Shown here: piece by piece, positions 2,417 through 23,197 of the stretch
Numbering within the stretch: the stretch's first letter is position 1
Layout: each line of letters begins with the position of its first letter
From: a virus
Length of the DNA stretch: 27,186 nucleotides
IMG/VR virus record: IMGVR_UViG_3300025913_000095
Location: 1-27,186 of that record
Strand: one strand, 5' to 3'
Program-made: the position numbers and the translations under genes
Notes under the pieces: model-generated
What the model was told of the DNA's origin: nothing
What the model saw: the letters and a program-made list of their open reading frames with translations, nothing else
The model's database searches: none

Positions 2417-3271
2417 TTATAATTTTTCTATTATTTTATATTTCCATTTAAATTCTTTATATGAAGCTCTAATACCCCTTAAACATCTTGATATAGAAGT
2501 TTCTAATCCATTAATATTAATGGCAGCACTAGTTATAGATTCATGTTCTCTAATAAAATTATTATTTAAATCTAATTGTATTATAGTCTTCTTTCTAGTA
2601 TTTTCATAAGTTCTAGGTTTTCCTACAAAAGTATCTTTAAAAATTAAAGGAATTTCATTATTGATTTTAAATTTCCACTTAAATCCTTGACTTTTACTTC
2701 TATTGTTATTACAACAAGCACTAATACCAGAAGGATCAAATCCTAACTTACCAAGTTCTAAAGTAGTTCTCCACTCTTTAATAAACATATTATCTAAGCC
2801 GTATTGTAAAACAGGTTTATTATTAGTCATAATTTGACTTTTTCTAGCCTCTTTTAAACTGTTTTTATGCTCTTCTGTAAAATGACCACCAAAAGCATAA
2901 TGATTTTCACCAGTATTTGATTCTTTCAATTTTCTTTTATGTTCTTCACTAATAGTTCTTCCAATAAAAGGTCTATCTGCAATTTCACATAAATTATAAC
3001 CAAATCGACGATCATAACAATATGTTAAATCAATCCATTTTTGTTCATAAAAGATTAAATCTTCTATATTTTTGACATATTGTATAACTTCAAAAATAAA
3101 TACTCCTCTCTTATGTTTATTATAAGAATTTTGCAAATATTTATTTGTGTGTCTATTATGTTTTAAATTAGAAAAATGTTGTGTCTTTCTTTTAGAGAGA
3201 TTTTGTGCAGAACCTATATAAATTTTAGAATTATTTATATTAGTTATTCGATATATTCCAGCTTGTTTCAT
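2417..3271 (-). CDS. Free-standing GIY-YIG homing endonuclease with NUMOD repeats
   Basis: A 284-residue endonuclease. GIY is at residues 5-7 and YIG at 18-20, followed by SKRKTQH, and by Glu76 in FYEQKWID, which matches the metal-binding glutamate of the family. Residues about 105-140 hold two NUMOD3-like segments (TISEEHKRKLKES, FTEEHKNSLKEA), and the C-terminal half holds two NUMOD1-like DNA-binding segments (VLQYGLDNMFIKEW and IIQLDLNNNFIREHE). This is the layout of phage homing endonucleases that cut a cognate DNA site and spread their own gene. It sits between the DnaB-type helicase and the 2207-2416 gene with no intron signs, so it appears to be a free-standing insert. The 41-bp gap upstream can form a hairpin. 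Confidence 0.9.
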   Translation of the reverse strand: MKQAGIYRITNINNSKIYIGSAQNLSKRKTQHFSNLKHNRHTNKYLQNSYNKHKRGVFIFEVIQYVKNIEDLIFYEQKWIDLTYCYDRRFGYNLCEIADRPFIGRTISEEHKRKLKESNTGENHYAFGGHFTEEHKNSLKEARKSQIMTNNKPVLQYGLDNMFIKEWRTTLELGKLGFDPSGISACCNNNRSKSQGFKWKFKINNEIPLIFKDTFVGKPRTYENTRKKTIIQLDLNNNFIREHESITSAAININGLETSISRCLRGIRASYKEFKWKYKIIEKL

Positions 3272-3312: not shown

Positions 3313-4389
3313 TTATACCCTAAATTCACTATCTCCAAGCTCTCTAAAATAATTACACTCACCTTGAAAAAATAAATCTAAATTAATATTTCCTCCACCT
3401 CTTCTATTAAAAATAATACAAAGTTCTCTATAGTTATCTTTTAATTTTTCTATATTAAATCCTTGATATTCTTTAACTTTATAACGAGCTGGTGCAAATA
3501 AACCAATCATCAAATCACAATCCCTACCAGTTAATTTACAATCACCTAAACCATCAGCACTAGGTCTTAATTTATCAATAATTGTACTTCCCTTAAAAGT
3601 AAATTGTTGTTTTTCTTGATCTCCTGCTTGCTGTTGAATATTAACAACTGTATATTTAAAATTATCTCTCATTTTTAAACTATAATCAGAACTAAATTTA
3701 AACATAGCATCCCAAAGTTCTTGTTGTTTACCATCAATTTTTTCAGGTTGTAATAAAGATAAACTATCAGTTATAACTATAACTTGCTCATGAGGATCAT
3801 TTGGTTCATAATAATCATAAAATGGGTTAGCTACTGGATCCACTTCTGTACCATCTTTTAAAAAGAACTTACCATTTTCTCTAGCATATTTTCTAACCTC
3901 TTTATATATACCATGTGGATTTCTTATGTTATCTATTATTGTAACAATAGATTCCACTCTAGTAAAATAATCTTTATAACTGTCTATTAATTGTTCAACT
4001 CTATCCTCTAAAACATATCCTTTAAAATAAGATTTTAAATTATCCATAGAGATAATATATTTCTTATCATTATATATTTTATTAGAAATCATTTGTAATA
4101 ATTTATCTTCTTTCGAGATTTCCAAGCTGAAATAAAAAATTTTTAATTTAAGATTAGTTTTATTATTTAATATATAATTTAAAGGTTCATATAAATATAG
4201 ATAATCAGCAATTTGAGTTTTCCCAACTTTACTGTTTGCTGTTATAATTACATATCTACCTTTTTGTACTCCAGGAAGAACAGTAGAGAGTTTAGGTAAA
4301 TTTAACCAAGGTATTAAAATATCTTCACCTTTTAATCTCTTCTGTTTGTTTTCCTTTAGCTCTTCTATTACTCTTTCTATAATACTCAT
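3313..4389 (-). CDS. dnaB: Replicative DnaB-type helicase, short form
   Basis: A 358-residue RecA-fold ATPase. It has Walker A ANSKVGKT at residues 51-58, the DnaB motif H1a-like FSLE at 87-90, a Walker B strand VIVITDSLSLL around Asp208, and a later VNIQQQAGDQE segment in the position of the DnaB sensor/loop region. The usual N-terminal collar domain of bacterial DnaB (about 150 residues) is missing; only about 40 residues precede the core. Such short DnaB-type helicases are known in phages, including crAss-like phages. It unwinds DNA ahead of the phage polymerase at the fork. The next gene (4386-4997) lies upstream with an ATGA overlap and may load it. Confidence 0.85.
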   Translation of the reverse strand: MSIIERVIEELKENKQKRLKGEDILIPWLNLPKLSTVLPGVQKGRYVIITANSKVGKTQIADYLYLYEPLNYILNNKTNLKLKIFYFSLEISKEDKLLQMISNKIYNDKKYIISMDNLKSYFKGYVLEDRVEQLIDSYKDYFTRVESIVTIIDNIRNPHGIYKEVRKYARENGKFFLKDGTEVDPVANPFYDYYEPNDPHEQVIVITDSLSLLQPEKIDGKQQELWDAMFKFSSDYSLKMRDNFKYTVVNIQQQAGDQEKQQFTFKGSTIIDKLRPSADGLGDCKLTGRDCDLMIGLFAPARYKVKEYQGFNIEKLKDNYRELCIIFNRRGGGNINLDLFFQGECNYFRELGDSEFRV

Positions 4390-7952: not shown

Positions 7953-8763
7953 CGTATTCTATCTTAAAATCATTAAGTTTGAATTTTTGAGTACCTAAAG
8001 TTTTGAAATATTCATTAATCTTATTTTGAAATTGAGATTTTACCATATAAGTAAATCTATCTTTAACTTGAGGATTAGTCACAACAGCTAAAGAACTATC
8101 TATTCTTGGTAATAAATCATGTAATCCAAAACCTAAATTAAGTGTATCAAAATAATTTCTTATAATATTTTTTTTATCATAAGAAGTAACCTGAGCTCCT
8201 TTATTATGATATAAATATAATATCCACTCCCAATTATTCTTTAAATCACTTCCAATTATCATATTAATAGCTAATTGATGATTATCACTATGACTACTAT
8301 CAATTAACTCTTTTAATGTAGAATAACTCTCAATATCAATTATATAACCATTATTTAGACTATCATTAAGTTTGTTTTGATTAACATATTTAACTTCTTG
8401 TTTTCTATCTATAAAATCTAATATTAAATCAATTGTATCTTGAATTTCACATGATTCATTATAAATTCCATATACAACTTCTTTAGTATCATCATCAACT
8501 ATATTTGTTCCATCAAAATATTGAGGATAATTTGATAAATTAAACTTATTAATAATTACATAATCAGCTTTTTCTTTCTTTATTACTCTTGATATTTTCT
8601 TTCCACAATAATCAGTTATTAAACGATTAACTGTGGTATTTTTTGTAAAATAAATACAACTATCATTGTCTATTTCAATATCATATGTTACCCAAATCTG
8701 ATTAATATAATCGAATAAATCTTGATCTATAAATTTATTATTTCCACTTATTACTATTCTCAT
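7936..8763 (-). CDS. Paralogue of the 7164-7952 protein, 275 aa
   Basis: A 275-residue protein immediately downstream of the MoxR-type ATPase (one-base contact with its stop). It opens MRIVISGNNKFIDQ and has a predicted alpha/beta N-terminal part ending in EKADYVIINKFNL. The central motif SHSDNHQLAINMIIG gives the same D-N-x-x-[LI]-A helix as its neighbour, followed after a short gap by the NW pair. Genes next to MoxR/VWA pairs often encode substrates or adaptors; applied here that is inference. No catalytic signature is visible. Confidence 0.7.
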   Translation of the reverse strand: MRIVISGNNKFIDQDLFDYINQIWVTYDIEIDNDSCIYFTKNTTVNRLITDYCGKKISRVIKKEKADYVIINKFNLSNYPQYFDGTNIVDDDTKEVVYGIYNESCEIQDTIDLILDFIDRKQEVKYVNQNKLNDSLNNGYIIDIESYSTLKELIDSSHSDNHQLAINMIIGSDLKNNWEWILYLYHNKGAQVTSYDKKNIIRNYFDTLNLGFGLHDLLPRIDSSLAVVTNPQVKDRFTYMVKSQFQNKINEYFKTLGTQKFKLNDFKIEYDANKQ

Positions 8764-9983
8764 TATTTTACCATATATTTAATAAATTCAGGATTTCCAG
8801 CTAATAATTGAGAAAATGTATTATTAATTCCTACAGTCTGCTTAACCATTAAATATTTTTGATCTACACTAAAACTTGGATGTAAAATTAAAGCTAAATA
8901 TTGTTTAATATTATCTTTACTTACAGTTTTTTGATTAAATCTCATATAATTATACATACGTGTAGTTAATATAGCTGCTGTAGCCGCTTTCCAATTGCTA
9001 CTATCTTTCTCACTATCTCCACAACATTGTGTTAATTGAGATTTAGCTGTTTTTTCATCATATTCTTTAATTAGTTTCTCAACACTTGGAAGTTTATCTA
9101 ATTTCTTATTAACAAAATTAATTAATTGACTAGTTAAATCTTTACCTACTGATATATCTCCATAAGTAGATATTATATCTAAATGTTTATCAAAATCATC
9201 AATTGTACTCACTAAACTAAAAAACTTATCCATCATTCTGGGACTAACATTTCCACTTGCACTAATTCCTTCAGCTTTTTTATTTTCTAATAGTTCAGGA
9301 GCCCATAATACAAAATTAATTAAACGTTCATCTAAACCAATTTTTTCAGCCCTTTCAGCCCAATCCTTAGCATCCCATACCATATTTACTTTAACCATCC
9401 TAGAAGCATGAGCTGCATCAACTGTTTGAACATTATATTCTCCATCATCTGGATTTTCAGACAATATAACTTGAATCTTTTTATCTTTTAAATCCCAACC
9501 AATCATAGTTCCCTCATTACAGATTTCCATAACTGATTGCATTAGTAATTGATTACCTCTACTAAAATCATCTAAACACAATATTCCATTTTCTTTCAAA
9601 TTAACAACCCAATCTGGAGGACAAGCAGATGTTTTACTTAATGTAGTTCTTTGATAACCTAATTTACTATATTCAGGAATCATATTTTCAGTACACCATA
9701 TACTATCAGTACCACTTTTAGCCATTTCATATTCTTTAGTATAAAATCCAACTAATTCAGATGGTTCTGTAATTTGTGATAAATTTAATTTAAAAAAATC
9801 TCTACCTAATTCTTCAGCTAATTCTCTAATAACTGTAGTTTTTCCAATTCCATGAGGTCCAACTACAGACATTGAAATTGGAATTCCACCTTTATTAATT
9901 ATTTTATCATTTGAATCTATTAATTGTTTTAATAAATTATATGTTTCTGTAGGTTTATATGTTGTTTGTTTAATTACACTCAT
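8763..9983 (-). CDS. MoxR-type AAA+ ATPase
   Basis: A 406-residue AAA+ ATPase. Walker A GPHGIGKT is at residues 42-49, Walker B GILCLDDF at 133-140, a sensor-1 Asn at about 177 in VILSENPDDGEY, and a candidate arginine finger Arg195 in AHASRMV. The arrangement and single AAA module of this size match the MoxR/AAA_5 group, which remodels protein targets together with a VWA-domain partner. The partner is encoded upstream in the same operon (exons at 13334-13120 and 11977-11002). The C-terminal 150 residues are helical and probably form the lid and partner contact. Confidence 0.85.
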   Translation of the reverse strand: MSVIKQTTYKPTETYNLLKQLIDSNDKIINKGGIPISMSVVGPHGIGKTTVIRELAEELGRDFFKLNLSQITEPSELVGFYTKEYEMAKSGTDSIWCTENMIPEYSKLGYQRTTLSKTSACPPDWVVNLKENGILCLDDFSRGNQLLMQSVMEICNEGTMIGWDLKDKKIQVILSENPDDGEYNVQTVDAAHASRMVKVNMVWDAKDWAERAEKIGLDERLINFVLWAPELLENKKAEGISASGNVSPRMMDKFFSLVSTIDDFDKHLDIISTYGDISVGKDLTSQLINFVNKKLDKLPSVEKLIKEYDEKTAKSQLTQCCGDSEKDSSNWKAATAAILTTRMYNYMRFNQKTVSKDNIKQYLALILHPSFSVDQKYLMVKQTVGINNTFSQLLAGNPEFIKYMVK

Positions 9984-9990
9984 AATTATT

Positions 9991-10320
9991 TTAATATTTA
10001 GTTTTTAATCTACGTTCTTTTTTATATTTAAGAAAATCTTCATCTCTACTAATATAATATCTTTTATTTTCATAAGCAACCCTTGATAATCTATGTCTTT
10101 GAATTGCTTTATTAATCTTTTGTAAAAATCTATTCCCTAAATTATCCCAATGACGATAAATCTCTCTCATAATAATATCTAATTCAATTAAATCATTAAT
10201 AGGCATGTTCTTTAAATCAATTGAATTTATTGCCATAATCCAACCCATATCTCTAATGGTCCCATCTTTAGAAAATATAAAATCATCAAAATCTTCTAAT
10301 TTATATTTCTCCTTTACCAT
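9991..10320 (-). CDS. Hypothetical protein, 109 aa
   Basis: A 109-residue protein with acidic N-terminus (EKYKLEDFDDFIFSKDGTIR) and a strongly basic C-terminus (RYYISRDEDFLKYKKERRLK). The middle is predicted helix (INDLIELDIIMREIYRHWDN). It overlaps the 10301-10564 gene by 20 bases. No family recognised; it separates the MoxR ATPase from the run of small D-N-x-x-[LI]-A proteins. Confidence 0.6.
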   Translation of the reverse strand: MVKEKYKLEDFDDFIFSKDGTIRDMGWIMAINSIDLKNMPINDLIELDIIMREIYRHWDNLGNRFLQKINKAIQRHRLSRVAYENKRYYISRDEDFLKYKKERRLKTKY

Positions 10321-10564
10321 TATCTTCAGGTTCTAAATTCAAATCTTGTAAAGTTTTAAAATACCTAGTTTTATTAATTGAATTTCCATACTTATAATCT
10401 TTTATTTGATTATAAACATGAGTTTTAAACTTCTTTTCTGATGGATAAATTTCTAAATATTTTAAACACATAGTTTTAGCTAAAAGATAAGCATCTCTAT
10501 CACTACTAAACATAGAAAGAAGTTCAATTTTCTCTTGCTTAGTTAATCTTTGTATTTCTTTCAT
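10301..10564 (-). CDS. Small helical protein, 87 aa, weak member of the D-N-x-x-[LI]-A set
   Basis: An 87-residue helical protein. Its segment MFSSDRDAYLLAKTMCLKYL resembles the S-x-x-D-N-x-x-L-A-x-x-I helix of neighbours, but the Asn is replaced by Ala, so membership is tentative. The rest is basic. It overlaps genes on both sides (20 bases with 9991-10320; 4 bases with 10561-10803), which implies coupled translation. Confidence 0.6.
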   Translation of the reverse strand: MKEIQRLTKQEKIELLSMFSSDRDAYLLAKTMCLKYLEIYPSEKKFKTHVYNQIKDYKYGNSINKTRYFKTLQDLNLEPEDNGKGEI

Positions 10565-10803
10565 TTTTCTAATTCTAAACTATTTAATATATGAGCAGCT
10601 ATTATTAAATCTTGATCATTTTTTGATTCAGAATTTACTAATAAATCCATAACTGTTGATATTATTTGATCTACATTATCATTTTTAAATGAATAATTTT
10701 TATATTCAGATAAAACTAAATTAACAGCGGTTCTAAAATTACAGTCAGACTCAAGATTAAATTTTTTAAATAAAACTTCCTTTGTTAATTCTTTTTCATC
10801 CAT
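10561..10803 (-). CDS. Small helical protein with D-x-x-[LI]-A motif, 80 aa
   Basis: I place the start at the ATG at 10803 (MDEKELTKEVLFKKF). An upstream ATG at 10821 would add six residues (MIIKMK) and lengthen the overlap with the preceding gene to 26 bases. The protein is helical and ends SKNDQDLIIAAHILNSLELE, close to the D-N-x-x-[LI]-A-x-x-I helix seen in five nearby genes, with Gln in place of one motif residue. It lies in a run of small overlapping genes between MoxR and its VWA partner. Confidence 0.6.
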   Translation of the reverse strand: MDEKELTKEVLFKKFNLESDCNFRTAVNLVLSEYKNYSFKNDNVDQIISTVMDLLVNSESKNDQDLIIAAHILNSLELEK

Positions 10804-11002
10804 TTTCATTTTTATTATCAATTATAGCTTTAGCAATTAAAAAATTATCAAGATCTTCAGATTTCATCAAATCATCAATAAAATTTTGTTCCTCTTTAGA
10901 AAAATTAATATTAAGATAGGAAATATGACTTACTCTATCATCATTGTCTAATTTATACTGAAATACAGTTTCTTTATTATTTTTATAACCTAATGAATAC
11001 AT
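10796..11002 (-). CDS. Small D-N-x-x-[LI]-A protein, 68 aa
   Basis: A 68-residue protein that touches the stop of the VWA gene exon 2 by one base. The N-terminal half is beta-like (KETVFQYKLDNDDRVSHISY). The second half is helical with LMKSEDLDNFLIAKAIIDNK, the clearest copy of the shared helix. Together with 10561-10803 and 13319-13678 it forms a likely paralogous set flanking the VWA gene. Confidence 0.65.
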   Translation of the reverse strand: MYSLGYKNNKETVFQYKLDNDDRVSHISYLNINFSKEEQNFIDDLMKSEDLDNFLIAKAIIDNKNENG

Positions 11003-11977
11003 TAATTTTCTTTTGGAATTTTAATCCATTTTCCACACCCTTTAATTACTTCTTCTGATCCATTACTACTAATTACCCATAATAAAGTTTTATTTGTTTT
11101 AATTTCAGGAACTTCTGCATGACCATCAGTAAATATTAAACAAGTTTCATATTGTTTTTGTTTATTATAAAATTCAATACAAGGAGTAAAATAAGTTCCT
11201 CCACATCTACTTCTTATAAAAATATTTGAATTAGCTTTATATTTAACTATTGGTCCTACTTCTGTATCAAATGCTCTAATCTCTAAATCGGTTGTTTTAC
11301 TTAAATGCGCAATCTCATTCAGAAAGTCCAATAATTCAGGTTCACTAACAGAACCAGACTCATCAATAAGAACTAGCACTTTATTTTTAGGTCTTAAAAC
11401 TATCTTGGGAGATCCAGGAAATCTTTGATTTTCTCTTAATTTAGTTGTTTTAATAAAATATTGCGTTGAATTACCAACAAAATTTCTTATGTACTTCTTA
11501 TAATTAAATTTTGGTTTAGGCTTTTTAAAGCCTTTAATTAAACTACTTATTTCAGCAGGAATATGTCCTTGAGATTTTTCTATCTCTTCTACTATACTTT
11601 CAATTGTATGTTCAACCTGAACTCTTATAGCATCCTTTTGACTATCTGATAATGGATCATTTGATATATTTCCTTCTCCATCAACTACTATCCAATGATG
11701 TTCAGCTTTTTCATCAATTCCTATTTCTTCCTTTTGTTCATCTGAAAGTTTACCTAATTCTTTATAATAATGATCTCTTCCAGCATTTGCTTTCCAATCT
11801 AAATCTGGATATTTAGTTTTAAAATCATCTATAAATATTCCCCAACTTGGTAATTGACTCTTATTAATTGTTTGATTAATCTCTAAATCACAAGCTATAT
11901 TATCCATTTTAGAATTAGAATACATATCCATTGTAATTAAATGAAACAAACAAAGATGCTTTGCTTCATGACTGAGG
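11002..11977 (-). CDS. Exon 2 of the VWA/HExxH protein (MoxR partner)
   Basis: Exon 2 starts at 11977 and completes codon 72 begun in exon 1 (GT|C, Val). It then reads LSHEAKHLCLFHLITMDM, restoring a zinc-metallopeptidase-like HExxH motif (HEAKH) followed by a conserved-looking ACDLEIN. The C-terminal half is a von Willebrand A domain: the MIDAS motif DESGSVS, and FTDGHAE carrying the later Asp. This two-part layout (metallopeptidase-like N-terminus plus VWA) is the DUF2201/VWA-like family that works with MoxR ATPases. The combined frame from exon 1 plus exon 2 is 1191 bases, 396 codons and a stop. Without splicing, translation of exon 2 could begin only at a TTG (11949) inside the motif. Confidence 0.88.
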
Positions 11978-13119
11978 CATTTTGTTAACTTATATTCTCA
12001 TATAAGATCGGACTATCCCTTAATCCTCATTTGTAGGATTGTGTATTATAGTCTCTGAACGTCTTGGTATATAATTAAAAAATTTAATTTTCTTTCTTTC
12101 CATACATAAACAATTATCATAATAGAAAAAATCCCTTAATCTAATAGAGTCGAAACCTCTAAAATTAATTGTATATAATGGATTTTTTCTATTTTTTGTT
12201 ACTTCATGAAAAGATTTTAATTTTACAGGTAAAAATATTAATAATTGTTTTATAAATTCTTTATTAGCACATACAAAAGTTGAACCTAACAAAGTTCTTG
12301 TTTTTTGTCTACTTAAAGGATTAGATACACTACCATCACCATCCCATAAACCTCTACAAAAATCCCCAATATATTCTTTTGGAATAATTGGAAATTTTAA
12401 ATTCATGGTTTTATTAGGAGTTAATCCAAAAGATTCTAAATCTTTTCTCATTTGATGAGAACTTATTTTTAATTTATAAATATATTTATTATATTTTTTA
12501 TGATGTTCTTTATTAATTATACCAGTAAAATTAAACTCCTTTTTAATATCTTCTAATATTTGTAAATCAATATTAGAAATTATAAAAGATCTTTTATCTT
12601 TAGTTGGTAAATTTCCATCTGTATAAATTAAACCTAAAATATAATATTTATTTGAAGAGTCATTTGATTTAGAAAAGTAATTATCATTTACTTTATAAAT
12701 CTTTTTTTCTCCAACTTTTCTACTTATATTTAATTTTTTGGCATAAGACCATATTGTCTTATTATTTAATTTATATTTACTTGTAATTTGATTAATAGTC
12801 AAATTATCATAATCCCGTTTAAATTCTTCTAAATTTGTAATATTCTTAAATTTCATAATGTAATAGTTATTAGGTGTATATAATCATAACTTAATATACC
12901 ATTTATTTATAACATTTACAACTTATTACTAAAATTTATTTTATATTTACCACTTTCGCTGCTGATTGTCCAATTTTTATCTTTTTTACTATACCTGAGT
13001 AATTAATTCAGCCCTATATTATATTTCTATATATAGTTAGTAGATAAAACTCTAAGGAGTTTCCAGTCAATTTAACACATTTTAAATATATATTACTATA
13101 TATTGGAGCTCTCTAGTCA
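11978..13119 (-). ncRNA. Group I self-splicing intron, 1142 nt, with homing endonuclease gene
   Basis: The core elements occur in order on the minus strand. P1 pairs exon TTGGGGT (13126-13120) with GCTCCAA (13109-13103), giving seven pairs and the required U.G at the splice site. The P3/P4 strand GTGTTAAATTGACTGG is near 13078. A Q-like GGACAATCAGCAGCGAAAG is at 12972-12951. R, GTTCAGAGACTA, is at 12060-12049, followed by P3' TAATACAC. P8 pairs AATCCT with AGGATT (12040-12022), and S, AAGGGATAGTC, is at 12021-12011; GACTA/TAGTC forms P7. P9 pairs CTTATAT with ATATAAG (12006-11989). The last intron base is the expected G (11978). Splicing restores the reading frame exactly. Confidence 0.92.
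12020..12856 (-). CDS. LAGLIDADG homing endonuclease inside the group I intron
   Basis: A 278-residue endonuclease with two LAGLIDADG-type motifs, ILGLIYTDG at residues 73-81 and CRGLWDGDG at 167-175, so one chain can form the complete active site. Residues 1-50 add a helix-turn-helix-like DNA-binding segment (TINQITSKYKLNNKTIWSYA). It would cut intronless copies of the VWA gene near the exon junction and spread the intron. The gene begins in the loop after the Q element. Its last codons (encoding ETIIHNPTNED) run through the R, P3' and P8 strands, and the stop overlaps P8, so the 3' end is under both protein and RNA constraint. Confidence 0.92.
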   Translation of the reverse strand: MKFKNITNLEEFKRDYDNLTINQITSKYKLNNKTIWSYAKKLNISRKVGEKKIYKVNDNYFSKSNDSSNKYYILGLIYTDGNLPTKDKRSFIISNIDLQILEDIKKEFNFTGIINKEHHKKYNKYIYKLKISSHQMRKDLESFGLTPNKTMNLKFPIIPKEYIGDFCRGLWDGDGSVSNPLSRQKTRTLLGSTFVCANKEFIKQLLIFLPVKLKSFHEVTKNRKNPLYTINFRGFDSIRLRDFFYYDNCLCMERKKIKFFNYIPRRSETIIHNPTNED

Positions 13120-13334
13120 ACCCCAAACTTCACTTCATCACTAAATTTAAACCATTCTTCTGGATTAATTAATAAACTAAAGTCCATTGTACTCTTATTA
13201 ATAGCTACAGCAGCTACAGGAATATCCTTACATTCTTTTTTTTCAATGGTACTCATGAATAATCCATAGAAAATATCATTTATTAAAAGTTTTTTAGATA
13301 TTTTACTAATATCTTGTATTAAATCTTGTTGCAT
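13120..13334 (-). CDS. Exon 1 of the VWA/HExxH protein
   Basis: Exon 1 encodes residues 1-71 and the first two bases of codon 72. The segment ends SDEVKFGV and in unspliced RNA runs only one codon into the intron before a TAG at 13115-13113. The N-terminus (SKISKKLLINDIFYGLFMST) is the helical start typical of VWA-like/DUF2201 proteins, and the joined sequence continues into the HEAKH motif. It overlaps the start of the 13319-13678 gene's 3' end by 16 bases. The exon pair is the MoxR partner gene. Confidence 0.88.
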
Positions 13335-22528: not shown

Positions 22529-23197
22529 CTATCTGTCCATTTCTAAGTATTTTAATACTTCTTCTTCAACTTTTGAAGAAAATAAAACATTACTTTTTCC
22601 ATTTGTCTTTTTTCTAATTATAAACAATCCTTTATTATAAGTATAACCCTTTCTTTTTGATTTCCCTTTAACTTTAATCAAATTAGTTATTTCATTCCAT
22701 TGTCTTCCATTTTTAACACCAAAATGAATTTGTCTACTATAGGTTGGATAGAATAATTTAATATCTTCAGTGGATTTATTTTCTTTTATTAATTTCCAAA
22801 TATTTAACTTTTCTTCATTTGAAAATTTAGAAAACTGCCTACTCATTAATGATTTTCTTCTAATAATTTCTTCTTTAGAATAATTTTTTATTCCACTTCC
22901 TCCTAATCCACCATCAGAATTATTACAAAGATTAGGAATAATTTTTCTGTAAAAATCAATCCAATAAATTTCTTTTTCTTGCCAATTACTTTCATTACAA
23001 ATTTCTATAACTTCTATAATTGGAAGTAATCCAGAATTTATTAAATTGATTATCCAATTTAAAACATATCTTTTTCCTTTTGATTTTTTTGCTTCATATA
23101 TGTGCCCATATAATCTTCTTTTTATATTGGTTGTTTTACCAATATATCTAATTAACCCATTTGGGTCTTTTAAACAATAAATGTATATTTTTTTCAT
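22529..23197 (-). CDS. GIY-YIG homing endonuclease, 222 aa
   Basis: A 222-residue endonuclease. The N-terminal GIY-YIG module reads YIYCLKDPNGLIRYIGKTTN (residues 4-23, with YIY and YIG as the signature tyrosines), followed by IKRRLYGH and by Glu74/Glu76 in NWQEKEIYW. The C-terminal half is basic and likely binds DNA (YSRQIHFGVKNGRQWNEITN). Its start lies inside the broken gene at 23208-23352, so it appears to have inserted there with its flanking RNA. Ten bases near its stop (CAGATAGTCT) are complementary to AGACTATCTG just upstream of the gene. Confidence 0.88.
   Translation of the reverse strand: MKKIYIYCLKDPNGLIRYIGKTTNIKRRLYGHIYEAKKSKGKRYVLNWIINLINSGLLPIIEVIEICNESNWQEKEIYWIDFYRKIIPNLCNNSDGGLGGSGIKNYSKEEIIRRKSLMSRQFSKFSNEEKLNIWKLIKENKSTEDIKLFYPTYSRQIHFGVKNGRQWNEITNLIKVKGKSKRKGYTYNKGLFIIRKKTNGKSNVLFSSKVEEEVLKYLEMDR

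Follow-up and report, generated by a model that had tools for sequence, protein, structure and literature searches.

The element described here is a 1142-nucleotide (nt) insert that splits a gene on the minus strand of the IMG/VR virus record IMGVR_UViG_3300025913_000095. The stretch analyzed, positions 1 to 27,186 of that record, is called the window. The interrupted gene encodes a putative metallopeptidase with a VWA domain, and an initial annotation made from the sequence alone had read the insert as a group I intron in a VWA/HExxH gene. The gene and its insert are arranged as follows, in the direction of transcription.

13120..13334, minus strand: metallopeptidase/VWA gene, exon 1, comprising codons 1-71 plus two bases of codon 72 and aligning to the N-terminal part of intronless homologues
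11978..13119, minus strand: group I intron, 1142 nt, its last base being the terminal G (11978)
12020..12856, minus strand: LAGLIDADG homing endonuclease, 278 amino acids, motifs LGLIYTDG and RGLWDGDG (Pfam LAGLIDADG_3, 2.5e-9; PHROG 4645, 5e-42)
11002..11977, minus strand: exon 2, encoding HExxH and the VWA domain

Joining the two exons (215 + 976 = 1191 nt) resulted in a frame of 396 codons without internal stop, which reads ...FGVLSHEAKHLCL...; the spliced exons around the junction are ...EVKFGVLSHEAKHLCLFHL.... Without splicing, the upstream frame reaches a stop two codons inside the insert. The insertion point, GV|LSHEAKH, is located three codons before HExxH. The host protein was identified by its DUF2201_N and DUF2201 domains. 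DUF2201_N scored 31.9 bits in the spliced protein compared to 22.9 bits in exon 2 alone (cut-off 23.2), and exon 1 on its own had no Pfam match. Homologues were collected by scanning viral contigs and confirming the hits by tblastn, which gave nine loci (loci carry L numbers throughout). L006 and L007 are single uninterrupted open reading frames (ORFs) of 394 and 390 amino acids, with 69% and 63% identity. In the intronless loci L005 and L008 the counterparts of 13120 and 11946 lie 31 nt apart, exactly as in the spliced gene of the window, and the insert could therefore be placed to the base. L005 is open from codon 3 onward, with a stop at codon 2 in the first bases at the contig end, whereas L008, whose 3' end is incomplete, is intact at that point. 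In the wider homologue set the junction was spanned in one segment in 78 of 80 loci, the remaining two being the same intron-bearing phages. The initial annotation had proposed splice sites exact to the base, a 1191-base frame restoring LSHEAKH when 13120 is joined to 11977, the VWA/HExxH identity of the host and an insertion a few codons ahead of the zinc-binding motif. All of these were borne out, and the comparison with intronless homologues that it had suggested also came out in favor of the junction.

Boundaries were set for 21 introns, including that of the window. Their cores were excised without the ORFs, one near-copy was removed, and the remaining 20 were aligned. The parts of the predicted ribozyme are listed below, with the number of paired cells among the 20 introns where counted.

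13120..13126, minus strand: P1, exon strand UUGGGGU
13103..13109, minus strand: P1, internal guide GCUCCAA
13111..13119, minus strand: P10, intron strand UGACUAGAG, pairing with CUCAGUCA of exon 2 with one bulge
11969..11976, minus strand: P10, exon-2 strand CUCAGUCA, holding an AGT (Ser) codon in place of the usual Lys
13086..13103, minus strand: P2 hairpin, its first base being the last base of the guide (120/120)
13075..13078, minus strand: P3, 5' strand GUGU, position counted from P4 (80/80, double changes in 4/4 pairs)
12041..12044, minus strand: P3, 3' strand ACAC, within the endonuclease ORF
13063..13070, minus strand: P element and P4, 5' strand (140/140)
12959..12966, minus strand: Q element and P4, 3' strand
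12995..13011, minus strand: hairpin of the P5 extension (80/80)
12941..12952, minus strand: P6, 5' strand
12065..12074, minus strand: P6, 3' strand, within the endonuclease ORF
12049..12060, minus strand: R element; the P7 5' strand is 12048-12053 (P7, 106/120)
12022..12040, minus strand: P8 hairpin, within the last codons of the endonuclease ORF (117/120)
12010..12021, minus strand: S element with the P7 3' strand (12011-12016)
11989..12006, minus strand: P9 hairpin, loop GAGA (140/140, double changes in 7/7 pairs)

In total, 783 of 800 cells were paired. P3 is the most telling helix for the fold: it is a pseudoknot whose strands lie about 1 kilobase (kb) apart, and all four of its pairs changed on both sides among the introns. 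P4 of the window intron shows a compensatory change from G-C to U-A. The elements named in the initial annotation (P1, P3/P4, Q, R, P8, S, P7 and P9) were found again, together with P2 and P6, the fold now being supported by covariation over 20 introns, and a P3-P8 core with P, Q, R and S elements is present. The terminal U.G pair of P1 at the 5' splice site and the G as last intron base, which it had also noted, occur in all 21 introns, the window included. The spacing from P7 to P3 is only about 3 nt and the P5 region is extended; the subgroup therefore looks more IB/IC-like than td-like IA, without formal typing.

In a shuffle control, made with the P5 hairpin one base out of register, 728 of 800 cells were paired in the real alignment, while 500 shuffles averaged 630 and reached 645 at most. 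The following points weigh against the assignment. The shuffle control ignores the relatedness of the introns. P7 has C-A at its innermost counted pair in 14 of the 20 introns, and one relative, L101, has a poor P1. The covariance-model search suggested in the initial annotation was only partly favorable. Rfam RF00028 remained below its gathering score of 50, a detection threshold and not a biological feature, both in the whole window and in the 1.7-kb region, and eight related loci had no Rfam match at gathering score. Against the 3' half only (111 bases searched) RF00028 reached 24.2 bits (E 9e-5), and against the 5' half it was near noise (9.1 bits, E 5.7). For this reason the fold was tested by comparing introns. 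Partial RF00028 matches are described for introns with a long endonuclease loop splitting the core, in the accessible part of PMC11878797. Finally, the intron at the window's site is identical in all four records (the window, L002, L003 and the record holding L004); the mobility pattern described below comes from its relatives.

The intact endonuclease ORF occupies most of the insert. Both acidic motifs are invariant across an alignment of 20 endonuclease sequences, and the enzyme has a further Pfam match to Hom_end, whose members are intein endonucleases. The AlphaFold2 model had a mean predicted local distance difference test (pLDDT) score of 85.7, and its best Foldseek matches in the PDB include I-Tsp061I and I-AniI; a phmmer search against PDB sequences gave no match. 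Two motifs with acidic residues together with the matching predicted fold characterize a two-motif LAGLIDADG enzyme. The last codons overlie P6, R, P7, P3 and P8, and residues 266-278, which are encoded by the core RNA, form the sole stretch with pLDDT below 50, as if this part of the modeled protein were dictated by the RNA rather than by protein needs. An own promoter for the endonuclease was unsupported (13 promoter-like sites compared to 13.2 expected). The initial annotation mentions neither this ORF (12856..12020) nor the wider pattern of insertions described below.

The exon codons at the junction are unusual. Codons 71-73 (GGG, GTC, CTC) form the rarest of 394 three-codon stretches in the gene; among the 35 window genes counted, GTC accounts for 2 of 239 Val codons and CTC for 4 of 554 Leu codons. 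The next codon is AGT (Ser), at a position occupied by Lys in 78 of 78 intronless homologues. The position varies in distant homologues (Met in AR9, Ile in a Moorella phage), and two alleles with an intron at another site of the gene (site B, below) also lack the Lys (Leu in L101, His in L105). The junction codons complement the intron: bases 2-9 of exon 2 pair with its bases 1-9, leaving one bulge. When exons were drawn from the phage's own codons for V-L-K, 1.1% of 20,000 draws reached the same pairing, compared to 10% with any third codon and 24% with Ser. The codons are compatible with selection for splicing and also with co-conversion from a donor whose codons differed. An exact search of viral contigs for the window's junction sequence in intronless form gave 0 places, so that neither a donor nor an ancestral empty allele carrying these codons is known.

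The partner of the interrupted gene is encoded downstream on the same strand, separated from it by four small ORFs.

8763..9983, minus strand: MoxR-type AAA ATPase partner gene, uninterrupted in the window (AAA_5 1.5e-9; bpMoxR 1.8e-6)

The combination of DUF2201_N and VWA near a MoxR AAA ATPase characterizes a MoxR-associated VWA cochaperone with an N-terminal metallopeptidase. A pair of MoxR ATPase and metallopeptidase-VWA protein is described for jumbo phages in the accessible part of PMC7824862, which suggests that it acts in virion assembly. The homologue in Bacillus phage AR9 is annotated as a zincin-like protease fused to vWA and adjoins an AAA ATPase. RefSeq phage records widely name metallopeptidase-VWA homologues HNH endonuclease, a label the domains do not support.

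The best endonuclease relatives with group I core motifs were found in the same metallopeptidase-VWA gene. Four insertion sites were distinguished: site A, the site of the window intron (GV|LSHEAKH); site B, inside HExxH (HEL|LH); site C, in the NIAxD motif (NIAMD|LEINQ); and site D, at a VWA threonine (RGG|TEF). This threonine and the MoxR sites were named by their motifs, which we take to be the metal ion-dependent adhesion site (MIDAS), Walker A and Walker B. By a filter for near-copies, 121 of 158 endonuclease loci were distinct, and in 43 of the 121 roughly 1 kb interrupts the VWA gene, the MoxR gene or both, at a point where the protein is contiguous. Over all searches, 194 distinct loci gave 26 insertions at sites A or B (site A in two, the window and L002), 12 at C and 8 at D. 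In the same set the MoxR gene was hit 8 times near Walker B, 3 times at LGD|LVG and once in Walker A. These counts are not frequencies, because near-copies were incompletely collapsed and the search was anchored on endonucleases. Group I cores were demonstrated at the VWA-gene sites only. Two of the MoxR insertions, L167 4361-5383 and L056 2856-3874, lie close to Walker B and carry GIY-YIG-type ORFs, not LAGLIDADG; in L056 the GIY-YIG score is 21.9 against a cut-off of 22.6, and the insert has R and S motifs. Some phages carry multiple insertions: L102 at B and C, L106 at B and D, and L167 at D and in MoxR. Invariant residues are more numerous within three positions of sites B, C and D than around random places (P ~0.002), in agreement with Swithers et al. 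(PMC2814812), who report, in the accessible part of the paper, that most group I introns favor conserved regions.

The introns at sites B, C and D in other phages (L101-L114, L124, L129, L154, L106, L160, L161 and others) are in the same gene and have an alignable core, with a LAGLIDADG ORF placed between Q and R as in the window intron. They differ from it in position, whole-intron DNA being 54-62% and the endonucleases 23-33% identical. Among site-B introns of diverged phages, the intron was more alike than exon 2 in 55 of the 55 pairs with a value (66 pairs in total), for example 99.1% versus 84.6% in L106/L108, and more alike than exon 1 in 62 of 66 pairs, as homing predicts. In the endonuclease tree, sites B, C and D each form one clade with 99-100% bootstrap, and the enzyme of the window groups with endonucleases from other genes (95/88) on a long branch; long branches make this placement unsure. 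Between the window and L002 there was no mismatch in bins 9250 to 13166, but four mismatches at 13167-13206 and a further one at 13293; in the polymerase gene beyond it the two diverge by about 29%. The intron is therefore near a recombination boundary, which is consistent with homing and also with ordinary mosaicism.

The insertion sites could have arisen by short-range transposition of one element within the gene rather than by separate invasions of different homing lineages. The ribozyme cores of sites A-D align mutually and the site-A guide resembles the site-B guide, as short-range transposition would have it. We nevertheless consider this origin rather unlikely, given the single, well-supported endonuclease clade at each of B, C and D and the grouping of the window endonuclease with those of other genes, unsure as that placement is; separate invasions are therefore favored. 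Our tentative proposal, held with somewhat less than even confidence, is that the MoxR-VWA pair may be a hot spot, entered by separate homing lineages at different motifs (HExxH, NIAxD, the MIDAS threonine, Walker A, LGD|LVG and Walker B), and that at the window's site arrival of the intron may have rewritten the exon, GGG-GTC-CTC and then AGT fitting P1/P10 with a change of Lys to Ser.

For the insert itself, by far the most probable explanation is a mobile group I intron that encodes a LAGLIDADG homing endonuclease and has inserted into the metallopeptidase-VWA gene, whose product partners a phage MoxR ATPase. Splicing of the intron and cleavage by the endonuclease we infer from the sequence. 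The RNA would fold into the group I core, whose structure is supported by the comparison above, and guanosine would attack at the U.G pair of P1, so that the exons ending at 13120 and beginning at 11977 would be joined and the zinc-motif protein restored. The endonuclease would cut intronless alleles at the insertion site, and repair would copy the intron and some flanking exon. Related elements, as the pattern in relatives shows, have entered the gene pair repeatedly, each lineage at a signature motif of its own. At such a site the target sequence is conserved, and imprecise loss of the element would ruin the protein.

It is very unlikely that the intron is instead a decaying relic that no longer splices efficiently, leaving the gene effectively off. 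The poor Rfam score of the 5' half and the unusual change of Lys to Ser beside HExxH could be taken that way, but the core helices are all intact with a compensatory change in P4, the endonuclease ORF retains both acidic motifs, and HExxH and a complete VWA domain remain encoded in exon 2. Reading the segment as an intein, a translational bypass region or two separate genes, for which the Hom_end match and a TTG that could serve as exon 2 start might be cited, is refuted on sequence grounds by the upstream stop two codons into the insert, the covarying group I core and the intronless homologues that read through the junction; a group II reading was likewise rejected.

Several known systems resemble this mobile group I intron. 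In T4 td-type phage introns the endonuclease ORF lies in the P6 loop and conserved host codons are targeted, and td has P7.1/P7.2 and a GIY-YIG enzyme. The window intron shares the ORF in the P6 loop, the splicing logic and the conserved host codons, and differs from td in its ~3 nt between P7 and P3, its extended P5 region and its LAGLIDADG enzyme. Related endonucleases flanked by host-gene pieces are present in the DNA polymerase I intron of Brevibacillus phage Jenst (31% identity) and the recA intron of Staphylococcus phage Romulus (27% identity); these differ in host gene, being in classic polymerase and recombinase targets. The phage intron targets named in the accessible part of Hausner et al. 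(PMC3984707) are polymerases, ribonucleotide reductases and terminases. The crAss-like phages of the Zeta and Delta groups are dense in introns and have several per conserved gene (PMC7886860, accessible text), and neither MoxR nor VWA occurs in that text. MoxR has 0 mentions in the accessible main texts of PMC11835236 and PMC11878797. The DNA polymerase of the window has relatives at ~30% identity that include Crassvirales, among the nearest named ones, and a Maribacter phage.

A literature search, confined to papers outside subscription, found no report of introns in the metallopeptidase-VWA/MoxR gene pair, consistent with the remark in the initial annotation that this host gene is little described. 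The element is thus of an ordinary kind in a little-described host; the present analysis adds two points, namely that signature motifs of a single chaperone pair have been targeted repeatedly and that exon codons are altered at the window's site. The MoxR-VWA pair, a proposed virion-assembly chaperone system (PMC7824862, accessible part), joins the short list of favored phage intron hosts. The natural series of insertions at distinct functional motifs can be used to ask what leads homing elements to catalytic codons, and whether their arrival alters the host protein. The split metallopeptidase domain was missed by its Pfam model in three of the four intron-bearing records searched whole, a warning for annotators that such a domain can escape detection.

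Further observations were made in related loci and elsewhere in the window. In L105 (~3887-3910) the last HExxH residue is Pro (HEL|LPYSIFH), via an apparent one-base insertion compensated a few bases on, which is either real decay or a contig error. In L171 (1380-4101) a related endonuclease, placed as in a group I intron, interrupts a DUF2828-matching protein within a region read as VWA-like. Related endonucleases were also found inside other split phage genes in L014 (2944-3786) and L015 (2851-3648), one of these genes being read as an AAA/Sak4-type ATPase. The window itself holds a GIY-YIG homing endonuclease with NUMOD motifs, apparently free-standing (2417-3271, minus strand), between DnaB-like and Sak4-like genes, and a second, weaker GIY-YIG-type endonuclease match at 22529-23197, minus strand (PHROG 5123, 2.4e-5).
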